From an uncultured Armatimonadota bacterium (GTDB lineage: Bacteria > Armatimonadota > Fimbriimonadia > Fimbriimonadales > Fimbriimonadaceae): 64,000 nt of DNA. The first letter of the stretch is position 1; every line of letters begins with the position of its first letter. Shown one piece after another: positions 38,245 to 44,489 of the stretch. Below the pieces are notes generated by a model. The model saw only the letters and a program-made list of their open reading frames with translations, was not told the DNA's origin and ran no database searches. A program made the position numbers and the translations under genes. Location of the stretch: positions 62,001 through 126,000 of the forward strand of contig CAILEM010000010.1 of NCBI GenBank assembly GCA_903833215.1, given 5' to 3'.

Positions 38245-39120
38245 TCAAACTTTCGCGAGAGCTTCGAGCACAAGGCGGGGAACATCACTGGTACGGTCTG
38301 CAACCGAGGCACCAGCGCTGAGGAAAGCATCCACTTTTGATTGAGGCGTGCCGGTATTGCCAGAGATGATCGCTCCTGCATGTCCCATTCGCTTTCCGGG
38401 AGGGGCCGTTCGACCCGAAATGAATCCTACAACCGGCTTCTTCATCGACTTGATGAATTCGCAAGCTGTCTCTTCGTCAGATCCGCCGATTTCACCGATC
38501 ATCACAACCGCTTTTGTTTTGGGATCCGCTTCAAACATCTCCATGACTTCGATAAATCGGGTTCCCGGAAGAGGGTCTCCTCCGATGCCGACGCATGTCG
38601 TCTGCCCGATGCCTGCACTCGTCATTTCCCAAACGATCTCATAGGTTAAGGTGCCACTGCGGGAAACGAGACCCACATCGCCTGCCTTGAAAATGTTGCC
38701 GGGCATAATTCCCATCTTGCACTCGCCGGGGGTGATGATTCCGGCGCAGTTCCCGCCTAGAAGTTTTGTCGTGCCGTTCGTTCGAACACGATTCACCATT
38801 CGGATTTCGTCGTGAATTGGAATCCAGTCGCTAATCAAAGTCACGAATGGGAGCCCAGCCGCTTCGCACTCAAGAACGGAGTCCGCAGCATACGGTCCTG
38901 GCACAAACACGATGGATGCATTCGCATCGACTGCCTTGACTGCTTCCTCGACGGTGTCGAAAATAGGTCGTCCGAGGAATTCGGTTCCACCCTTTCCAGG
39001 AGTAACGCCTGCAACCACCTGGGTTCCGTACTCAATCATTTGCCCCGTGTGGAAGCCGCCTTCTTTGCCCGTCATGCCGCACACAATCACTCGCGTGTGC
39101 TTATCAACCAGGATTGCCAT
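38245..39120 (-). CDS. sucD: Succinyl-CoA ligase, alpha subunit
   Basis: 291 residues. The ATG at 39120 gives the standard [21 protein letters not shown] start, and a TACCAT box precedes it by seven bases. [11 protein letters not shown] and [19 protein letters not shown] are the CoA-binding parts; the phosphorylated His247 is in [11 protein letters not shown]. The enzyme interconverts succinyl-CoA and succinate in the TCA cycle. Its obligate partner sucC is not in the window, which is unusual because the two genes are commonly adjacent. Confidence 0.95.
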
Positions 39121-39133: not shown

Positions 39134-39290
39134 CCTACCTCAATCCCGCCAGCACCTCGCTGGACCGTCAATCAAGTGCACGGAACCCTGGAACTTCACC
39201 AACATCGCTAGGAATCTGCCAAAAGGCCCGATGCGTATCTATTTTCGCGATTCCATGAAAAGCCTCCTAACCGCTTGAAGGTTTCCGTGA

Positions 39291-39296
39291 TACACT
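39291..39296 (+). promoter_or_regulatory. -10 box TACACT of the c-di-AMP riboswitch transcript
   Basis: TACACT predicts a transcription start near 39303, about ten bases before the aptamer. No good -35 was found at 16-18 bases. Confidence 0.5.
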
Positions 39297-39312
39297 AATT
39301 ACTGTGGCTGCA

Positions 39313-39437
39313 AAGCCAGCGTTGAATTTCCCAAAAGGAAAACGGGGGAACCGTAACTTAGGGGTGAATGGAAACCAGTTTGGTTTCCTAGGGTAACTCT
39401 TGGCCCGAACCCGACAGCTAACCCCGTAGACGTAGCA
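39313..39437 (+). ncRNA. c-di-AMP riboswitch aptamer (ydaO/yuaA type)
   Basis: The conserved blocks of the ydaO/yuaA class appear in order: AGCGTTGAA (39318-), ACGGGGGAACC (39342-), TAGGGGTGAATGG (39359-), TAGGGTAACTC (39389-), then GCCCGAACCCGACAGCTAAC and CCCGTAGACGTAGC (39402-39436). These ligand-binding blocks are nearly invariant in that family. The class senses cyclic di-AMP and usually lowers expression of wall hydrolases or potassium and osmolyte transporters. Here it is followed by about 200 bases and a terminator, with no long gene on its strand. Confidence 0.93.
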
Positions 39438-39513
39438 TGAGTCGGATGCGCGCGAACGACGCCGGTTTCGGCCGGAAGAGAAGACGGGACAATGTTGTTC
39501 CGGTCAGGGCGCC

Positions 39514-39636
39514 ATGACACTTGCATTTGTGGTCCAGGGGGCATTGTGCCTTCAATCGTGGTCTTTGGCTGCAATGGAGCAGCGCCAATCGCGATTTGAA
39601 GAATCAATTGCCTTTCGTGTCAGCACCTCCTGTTGA
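39514..39636 (+). CDS. Possible 40-residue ORF controlled by the riboswitch
   Basis: ATG 39514, four bases after AGGG, to TGA 39636. It encodes a short hydrophobic start (MTLAFVVQGALCLQSWSLAA) and a polar tail. A second option in another frame runs 39492-39599 (35 residues, MLFRSGRHDTCICGPGG...). Neither is known to me. They are the only coding candidates between aptamer and terminator; the region may equally be non-coding. Confidence 0.25.
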   Translation: MTLAFVVQGALCLQSWSLAAMEQRQSRFEESIAFRVSTSC

Positions 39637-39639
39637 GAT

Positions 39640-39670
39640 GGGCCTTCCGAAAGGGAGGCCCTATTTATTT
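39640..39670 (+). terminator. Terminator of the riboswitch transcript
   Basis: GGGCCTTCC (39640-39648) pairs with GGGAGGCCC (39653-39661), GAAA tetraloop, followed by TATTTATTT. It lies 200 bases after the aptamer and just before the convergent upp gene. Confidence 0.85.
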
Positions 39671-39715
39671 GCTCAATAGGGGCTGGAACCGATGCCACAA
39701 GAAAAGAACGAATCT

Positions 39716-40336
39716 CTACGGTGTTCCGTAGAGTCGATCTCCAAAATCACCCAGGCCAGGCAGAATGTACTTTTTGGCGTTCAGGCCATCATCAAGTGCG
39801 GCCGTAATAATCTGAATGTCGGGGTGAGCATTTTGTAAGAACGCGACACCCTCGGGTGCAGCGACGACCGACACCATTGTGATCTGGGTTGCTCCATGTG
39901 TTTTCATGAGGCTGATTGCCTGAGCGGCCGAGCCTCCTGTCGCCAGCATCGGGTCCAGACAAAGGTTGTAGCGACCGGCTAAATTAGGCAGTTTGCTGTA
40001 ATAGCTTCGGGCAATCGCTGTGTCCTCGTGGCGTTCGAGCCCGATATAACCAACCGCAACATCAGGAAACAAACGCACGACGGATTGAAGCATGCCCAAA
40101 CCTGCACGCAAAACGGGTACCGCAGCAAGCGGCTGATCGAGAACCTTTCCTGGAGTGGTTTTAAGTGGCGTCTCAACCATGACCTCCCGCGTGCGGATGT
40201 TATAGGTAGCCTGCAGCACGAGAAGAGTCGTCAGCGTCTCCGTCATCGATCGAAACTGTTCCGGGTTTGTTGACTTATCACGGAGATGCGCTAACAGGTG
40301 GGCAGCCAACGGATGGTCCAGTACTTGCAGTGGCAT
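39716..40336 (-). CDS. upp: Uracil phosphoribosyltransferase
   Basis: 206 residues, normal length. VLDHPLAAHLLAHLRDKST is the typical start; LDPMLATGGSAAQAI is the PRPP-binding loop; PGLGDFGDRLYGTP is the uracil-site C-terminus. It salvages uracil to UMP with PRPP, the product of the nearby prs gene. The ATG lies eight bases after a TAGAAT box. It is divergent from glmU. Confidence 0.97.
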   Translation of the reverse strand: MPLQVLDHPLAAHLLAHLRDKSTNPEQFRSMTETLTTLLVLQATYNIRTREVMVETPLKTTPGKVLDQPLAAVPVLRAGLGMLQSVVRLFPDVAVGYIGLERHEDTAIARSYYSKLPNLAGRYNLCLDPMLATGGSAAQAISLMKTHGATQITMVSVVAAPEGVAFLQNAHPDIQIITAALDDGLNAKKYILPGLGDFGDRLYGTP

Positions 40337-43545: not shown

Positions 43546-44489
43546 TGGGAAATCAGTATCTCGATACAGGATGGTTCATGATGGTCCTCACCCTTGTGAT
43601 GGTGAGTCTCATCTTGTACAACATATCCCGCGCTCACGGAGGCAAGGATCTCTACATACGTAGAATCTCAGGTCTCAACGCAATTGACGAGGCAGTTGGA
43701 CGTGCCACAGAAATGGGAAGACCCGTTCTGATGGTTCCTGGCCTAAGCGCAAGCGTCAATGCCAAAACGATGCAGGCGATCAATATCTTCGCCTACGTCA
43801 CTCGTGTTGCGGCCAGGTTTGCGAACCCAATCATGGTCTGTTGTGCAGACGCGACGGTTCTGACGGTTTGCCAAGAAGTTATTCGTGATGTCTATCAGCA
43901 GGAAGGCCTCGCCGATCAGTACGACGTTGACTCCGTACGGTTTATCAGCGATCGTCAGTTCGCTTTTGCCGGTGGCGTCGCCGGGCTTATCCTTCGAGAA
44001 AAGGCTGCTGCTACTTTCTTCCTGGGTGAGTTCTATGCCGAGTCGCTGATTCTCGCTGAGACGGCAAACTCAGTTGGAGCTATCCAAGTTGCAAGCTCAA
44101 CCGAGTTAACACAAACGCCGTTCTTTATCGCCGCCTGTGACTACGTTCTCATCGGAGACGAATACTATGCTGCAAGCGCTTTCTTGACGCGACAACCCGT
44201 GCTTGTTGGCAGCTTAATCGGGCAGGACTGGTGCAAACTCGCGATGATCGCCATGATTCTTTGTGGCACAACCTTCAACTCCATCCAACAGCGAGGAACA
44301 ACGACAACGGAGCACAAAGAAGGGAAGTGGGTTGATTTGCCCAAAGAGAGACTCGTTTTGGCCAAAGACACATTCTTTTCGCGCTTGCTTAAGGCAGATC
44401 CCGAAAAGAACATCAAATTGGATCCGCCACGCGAAAAGCTTCCCCCAGATCAACTTCCTTCCGGCGGCCCTGCAGGAGGTGACAAATGA
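43545..44489 (+). CDS. DUF6754-like membrane-anchored protein
   Basis: 314 residues; the ATG overlaps the previous stop by one base (TAATG). An N-terminal anchor (WFMMVLTLVMVSLILYNI) is followed by GGKDLYIRRISGLNAIDEA, GRPVLMVPGLSASVNAKTMQ and VRFISDRQFAFAGGVAGLIL. A conserved-looking SVGAIQVASSTELTQTPFFI and FIAACDYVLIGDEYYAASAF come before a second membrane helix (KLAMIAMILCGTTF). I believe this is the DUF6754 family, which has no known function. It is probably the core component of the cluster. Confidence 0.65.
   Translation: MGNQYLDTGWFMMVLTLVMVSLILYNISRAHGGKDLYIRRISGLNAIDEAVGRATEMGRPVLMVPGLSASVNAKTMQAINIFAYVTRVAARFANPIMVCCADATVLTVCQEVIRDVYQQEGLADQYDVDSVRFISDRQFAFAGGVAGLILREKAAATFFLGEFYAESLILAETANSVGAIQVASSTELTQTPFFIAACDYVLIGDEYYAASAFLTRQPVLVGSLIGQDWCKLAMIAMILCGTTFNSIQQRGTTTTEHKEGKWVDLPKERLVLAKDTFFSRLLKADPEKNIKLDPPREKLPPDQLPSGGPAGGDK

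Follow-up and report, generated by a model that had tools for sequence, protein, structure and literature searches.

A predicted free-standing small RNA with a c-di-AMP aptamer and an anti-Shine-Dalgarno seed, and its probable lipoprotein target in Fimbriimonadales

Results

A c-di-AMP aptamer between sucD and upp

The window, by which we mean the whole stretch of 64,000 nucleotides that was analysed, comes from a genome of Fimbriimonas (Armatimonadota), the genus to which the genomes G004, G012 and G019 also belong. The sequence-only reading had named a ydaO/yuaA aptamer, and the covariance search that it proposed confirms this aptamer at 39310-39446 (+), between sucD (38245..39120, minus strand) and upp (39716..40336, minus strand): the match covers the full model of RF00379 (1-134) and scores 87.6 bits (E 4.4e-19), where the gathering score, the curated cut-off, is 38. 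It is the single copy of RF00379 in this genome of 6.2 Mb, which also encodes a diadenylate cyclase domain. The predicted promoter of the RNA is an extended -10 element, TGATACACT, at 39288-39296 (+); its motif, TGNTANNNT, recurs before homologous aptamers and in most close homologues keeps a constant spacing of 22-23 nt 5' of the aptamer. An intrinsic terminator occupies 39640..39671 (+), with a hairpin of nine pairs, seven of them G-C, at 39640-39661 and a T-rich tail behind it, and most relatives have a homologous terminator. The -10 box and the terminator had both been noted from the letters of this one stretch, as had the convergent gene past the terminator, which is upp, ending at 39716, and the lack of a gene that would belong to the aptamer: on the same strand we find no open reading frame of more than about 50 aa between the aptamer and upp. 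The same-strand downstream gene that marks a cis-acting c-di-AMP riboswitch is missing here, where convergent upp follows, and the downstream genes vary among homologues. By sequence, the aptamer lies at the 5' end of a putative non-coding transcript with a promoter and a terminator of its own.

Distribution of c-di-AMP aptamers in the order

At least one c-di-AMP aptamer is present in 45 of 61 relatives and in 84 of the 113 genomes of the order. In the loci that we call class 1, a strong Shine-Dalgarno sequence (SD) stands within about 20-60 nt of the aptamer, on its 3' side, ahead of a gene for a small protein that is probably helical. The window locus is of class 2, in which the aptamer is followed by 55-185 nt of non-coding RNA, the heptamer ACCTCCT and an intrinsic terminator. 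Class-2 loci come from the Fimbriimonadaceae (f1) and from their sister family, f5. Much of Fimbriimonadales has roughly one such locus in each genome, in many gene contexts, and TGNTANNNT occurs in the last 48 nt before the aptamer at 15 of 36 class-2 loci (1.1 expected). The exact string of seed and terminator also matches three Armatimonadota contigs. The description of the window aptamer as an orphan therefore holds, but comparison with relatives reveals this as the conserved state of a whole RNA class and not as a peculiarity of the window genome.

Some class-2 loci depart from the usual layout. In a short variant (L064, L065 and L066, from G015, G018 and G001) about 55 nt separate the aptamer from ACCTCCT, a GCCCC/GGGGC hairpin holds the seed in its loop, and the gene context is different. 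Three further loci (L056, L057 and L063, from G013, G014 and G010) have kept the aptamer and the hairpins of the RNA body and have lost ACCTCCT and the usual terminator.

The class-1 proteins, for example those of L044:4106-4390 (+), L039, L037, L038, L031 and L049, have 80-140 aa and are probably helical, and two of these examples have no Pfam family; several of the loci adjoin a gene for a large (~815 aa), secreted-looking protein. The class-1 protein is possibly the product of a new c-di-AMP regulon gene. In a third group (L050, L085, L092, L102, L188, L189, L190 and L198) a GGAGGAG stretch stands right after the aptamer and is followed by a long, partly conserved, apparently non-coding stretch with a motif like CACCACTGGGGC and no clear open reading frame. 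This stretch may be a further RNA to which a c-di-AMP aptamer is joined.

Structure of the RNA body

The body of the window RNA (39447-39637), which is conserved within Fimbriimonas, contains three hairpins that are supported by 12 alignable homologues. In the first, CCGG...CCGG at 39462..39475 (+), all three pairs have changed on both sides. The second, GGGAC-AATGTT-GTTCC at 39486..39501 (+), covaries in the 12 homologues, and so does the third, GCTGC-AATGGA-GCAGC at 39568..39583 (+), in which 98.3% of the alignment cells are paired. Over all helices, 7 of 13 pairs have changed on both sides and 95.5% of cells pair in these homologues; shuffled and slid versions stay far from these values. 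A known RNA family for the body was sought and given up, as no other Rfam family matches 39447-39640 even at a permissive threshold.

The second and third hairpins, 66 nt apart, share a hexaloop of the type RAYGNN, and these loops are candidates for a protein site or an RNA contact. The RNAs bound by ANTAR proteins (Rli55-like) have two close hairpins whose hexaloops start with A and have G as the fourth base. The loops of the body mostly follow this pattern; in some homologues, however, the first base is G, and 66 nt separate the two hairpins. With this partial fit, we do not propose ANTAR binding.

The seed and its probable unlinked target

Directly 5' of the terminator lies the putative seed, CACCUCCUGUUGAG; the seed segment (39621..39637, +) reads CAGCACCTCCTGTTGAG and has its core, ACCTCCT, at 39625-39631. 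This core, found in nearly all class-2 loci, is identical to the core of the 3' end of 16S rRNA, which reads GGATCACCTCCTTT in the window genome; the RNA thus carries an anti-Shine-Dalgarno sequence. We scanned four genomes (the window genome G000, G004, G012 and G019) for CAGGAGGTG followed by ATG within 8 nt, and the only gene with such a site in all four encodes a lipoprotein of 46-52 residues that begins MTKKIFALVMVVSVLGAFVAGC and has no Pfam family. Its leader string, CAGGAGGTGTTTGTATG, is identical in the four genomes. In G000 the gene lies at C155:28505-28651, on a contig other than that of the RNA.

Orthologues of the lipoprotein were then collected by protein similarity alone, and each leader was compared with the seed of its own genome. 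Of 47 genomes that have the seed, 41 carry GGAGGTG in the leader; of 20 that lack the seed, 1 does. This is a raw count that ignores kinship and in which some matches from genomes without the RNA may be paralogues. In the members of the genus that lack the seed, the leader reads AGGAGGAAG (G010) or AGAGGAGATTAG (G013 and G014), and GGAGGT has been lost. Divergent seeds occur in G075 and G064, that of G075 matching its target incompletely.

The window itself contains a full complement to the seed at 44473-44488, where CAGGAGGTGACAAATG precedes an open reading frame of ~302 aa (start codon near 44486) whose product looks like a membrane protein. G004, G012 and G019 do not share this site.

Coevolution of seed and lipoprotein leader

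In 50 genomes from 25 genera, duplexes between the RNA and the lipoprotein leader of the same genome are more stable than non-cognate ones (mean -21.9 vs -20.6 kcal/mol, permutation p 0.0006). After weighting by genus and double centring, the advantage of cognate pairs amounts to -1.89 kcal/mol (z -4.3). When the flanks of the target were shuffled and the core was kept, the value was 0.10 +/- 0.46, and 0 of 60 shuffles reached such a low value, so the advantage is not one of base composition. Complementarity in four genomes had first pointed to the target, yet the tests hold when these four are absent: with one genome per genus, the median p is <0.001, and it stays there when the four discovery genomes are left out, when only f1 is taken, and when Fimbriimonas is removed from f1.

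The covariation can be followed at single positions. Where ACCTCCT is followed by A, the target base before AGGAGGT is T in 6 of 6 cases; where it is followed by G, the target has C there in 11 cases, T in 7 (a wobble pair) and G in 2. Outside the core, a second pairing block joins GUUGAG or its variants in the RNA to CUCAAC or matching variants 5' of the SD, and it too pairs better in cognate combinations (p 0.00025; examples are GUUGAAC/GUUCAAC in G073 and GUUGG/CCAAC in G100, with others in G091, G063 and G036). The 5' flank of the RNA alone has no significant cognate effect (p 0.10). These comparisons make pairing between the RNA and the lipoprotein leader well supported, and a conserved seed that coevolves with an unlinked mRNA is what one would expect of a trans-acting small RNA (sRNA).

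Discussion

We consider it probable that the locus encodes a free-standing sRNA of ~365 nt in which a 5' c-di-AMP aptamer is followed by a structured body and, before the terminator, by an anti-SD seed; that this sRNA acts in trans to block translation of the lipoprotein; and that c-di-AMP sets the amount of active sRNA. The aptamer, the terminator, the conserved seed, the body structure and the coevolution with the lipoprotein leader can be read from the compared sequences. We infer from them that the unit is transcribed, that the aptamer binds its ligand, and that repression is the outcome of pairing; the direction of control by c-di-AMP is a further inference, taken up below. Most likely, the tip of the RNA pairs with and silences the message for this tiny envelope lipoprotein: it would cover the SD and block translation, and the aptamer would make the silencing depend on c-di-AMP, whose binding would set the level of active sRNA. 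Of the roles that the sequence-only reading had offered, that of a small RNA, with a predicted gating by c-di-AMP, has gained strong comparative support from the conserved unit, the covarying body and the coevolving seed; a peptide and a control of upp have found no support.

An alternative explanation is that the RNA mimics the anti-SD of the ribosome and acts in trans on a broad set of SD sequences, the lipoprotein being one target of many, or that it affects access to ribosomes in general. ACCTCCT is, after all, the anti-SD core of 16S rRNA, its complement GGAGGT is also the core of a generic strong SD, many mRNAs carry an SD of the AGGAGG type, and the open reading frame that starts near 44486 in the window has CAGGAGGTG before its ATG. 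However, CAGGAGGTG is common to all four scanned genomes only at the lipoprotein gene, and the bases that flank the core coevolve with the lipoprotein leader and not with the SDs of class 1. In 25 genomes the SDs of the class-1 c-di-AMP mRNAs, taken as controls, show no cognate preference (-0.15, p 0.38), against -1.47 (p 0.0066) for the lipoprotein leader in the same genomes. A broad target set is therefore unlikely, and we prefer an sRNA whose main target is the lipoprotein message.

The neighbourhood of the RNA bears on a second alternative, namely that the locus is an ordinary c-di-AMP off-switch with its terminator, acting in cis, from which a hisB operon has moved away, leaving the leader as a relic. 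In f1 the RNA is usually divergent to sucD, which forms a conserved flank, and in many relatives hisB lies 3' of the terminator on the same strand (G017, G025, G003, G009, G002, G005, G006, G007, G027 and others); it also lies behind the RNA in G013 and G014, both without the seed. Other neighbours are found in G019, G011, G016, G032, G028, G033, G024, G030 and all seven f5 genomes, so that f5 possesses the unit without an adjoining hisB. A full-length gene in relatives that is truncated in the window genome had been named as the finding that would count against an orphan RNA, and hisB does follow in several relatives, yet the window genome has an intact hisB on another contig. The same was seen in 7 of 7 checked genomes without a linked hisB (G000 included): hisB is intact elsewhere and the RNA is retained, its seed and body hairpins still conserved. 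Furthermore, an element that resembles a -10 box (TATAAC, TATGTT, TAGAAT and similar) stands right before the start codon of many hisB genes, whether these are linked or not, and to our knowledge hisB is not a usual c-di-AMP gene. Because hisB is intact elsewhere and often has a promoter-like site of its own, the RNA is not the leader of a broken gene, and we rejected a relic leader as improbable; given also its varied neighbours, the RNA is best seen as an independent transcription unit.

We consider it very improbable that 39437-39640 encodes a small peptide under control of the aptamer. The guess had been one of 35-40 residues, and short open reading frames of 26-40 aa do exist, one of them with an ATG at 39492 and a similar frame in G004. 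However, G019 has ACG in place of this ATG, and G012 lacks it altogether. From one species to another the frame shifts and the length varies by amounts that are not multiples of three, whereas the base pairs of the segment covary. A check for conservation at the codon level found no frame common to the homologues, and neither start codons nor lengths are conserved across them. The convergent orientation of upp, a gene outside the unit, and the position of its stop codon, 55 nt past the terminator hairpin, might suggest antisense or readthrough control of this gene. Such control can be dismissed, since no more than three genomes (G000, G004 and G012) have upp as the next gene downstream and the RNA and its terminator stand in unrelated contexts elsewhere.

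How c-di-AMP would control the predicted sRNA may differ between the two families. In f5, a second, early terminator-like site follows 60-65 nt past the aptamer in 6 of 7 homologues. This site, together with the analogy to a c-di-AMP off-switch (PMC6488665) and to AspocR and Rli55 (PMC8079631), suggests that c-di-AMP stops transcription in f5 before the seed is made, and high c-di-AMP would thus favour synthesis of the lipoprotein. We found no early terminator right after the aptamer in the f1 homologues, G000 included, and the window locus differs in this respect from AspocR and Rli55, where a ligand-controlled premature terminator is found. Gating in f1 would consequently have to use folding, stability or factor-dependent termination. 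In single-sequence folds with and without the aptamer forced, exposure of the seed did not change consistently. We also considered that the seed is hidden within the molecule, by a GGAGGTG-like stretch (~+25 to +35) or by GGGGTG in the aptamer, and discarded this idea, as the complement is not preserved in G000 and G011 or in the f5 aptamers. It is conceivable, though in our view doubtful, that in the Fimbriimonadaceae c-di-AMP directly gates pairing of the finished sRNA, allosterically and with no ligand-controlled terminator, in what would be a conserved c-di-AMP route to the level of the envelope lipoprotein across the order.

Homeostasis of the cell wall and of turgor is linked to the nucleotide c-di-AMP, and the riboswitch that senses it is known to regulate in cis. 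If our reading is true, this would be the first c-di-AMP switch that acts in trans, as far as the literature that we searched shows. That literature, with subscription journals mostly outside it, contains no c-di-AMP case of a non-coding RNA fed by a riboswitch, none of any kind in Armatimonadota, and no description of a route from c-di-AMP to the envelope by way of an sRNA. The Armatimonadota gain a defined candidate pair of sRNA and target, the link from c-di-AMP to an envelope lipoprotein becomes directly testable, and aptamers without a gene can be sRNA genes and not relics.

Four kinds of known RNA come closest to the predicted one. MicL of E. coli represses the lipoprotein Lpp (PMC12137417) and is thus an sRNA of the kind predicted here, one that blocks translation of a small envelope lipoprotein; unlike our RNA, it has no aptamer, and we claim no relation in sequence. 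In Bacillus thuringiensis the leader of kdpFABC has a ydaO/yuaA riboswitch, which is a c-di-AMP off-switch (PMC6488665) and belongs to the same aptamer family, and the f5 homologues also have a terminator soon after the aptamer; however, the window RNA lacks a cis gene and has its own terminator after a conserved body and seed. That riboswitches can feed non-coding RNAs is already known from AspocR, Rli55 and SreA. SreA and SreB of Listeria, two transcripts of SAM riboswitches, pair with prfA in trans (PMC8079631), and base pairing of a riboswitch RNA with an mRNA leader is also what we predict; SreA is the terminated leader of a transporter operon and retains its cis role (PMC8079631), whereas the window RNA has no conserved cis gene. 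Rli55 and AspocR of Listeria monocytogenes are B12 riboswitches that control non-coding RNAs, the former sequestering the protein EutV and the latter being antisense to the neighbouring pocR (PMC8079631). Like these, the window RNA is predicted to be a regulatory RNA that has a metabolite aptamer at its 5' end and no gene, and its f5 homologues have the logic of an early terminator in common with them; the window RNA differs in its ligand and in its predicted target, an unlinked mRNA that would be bound at the SD.
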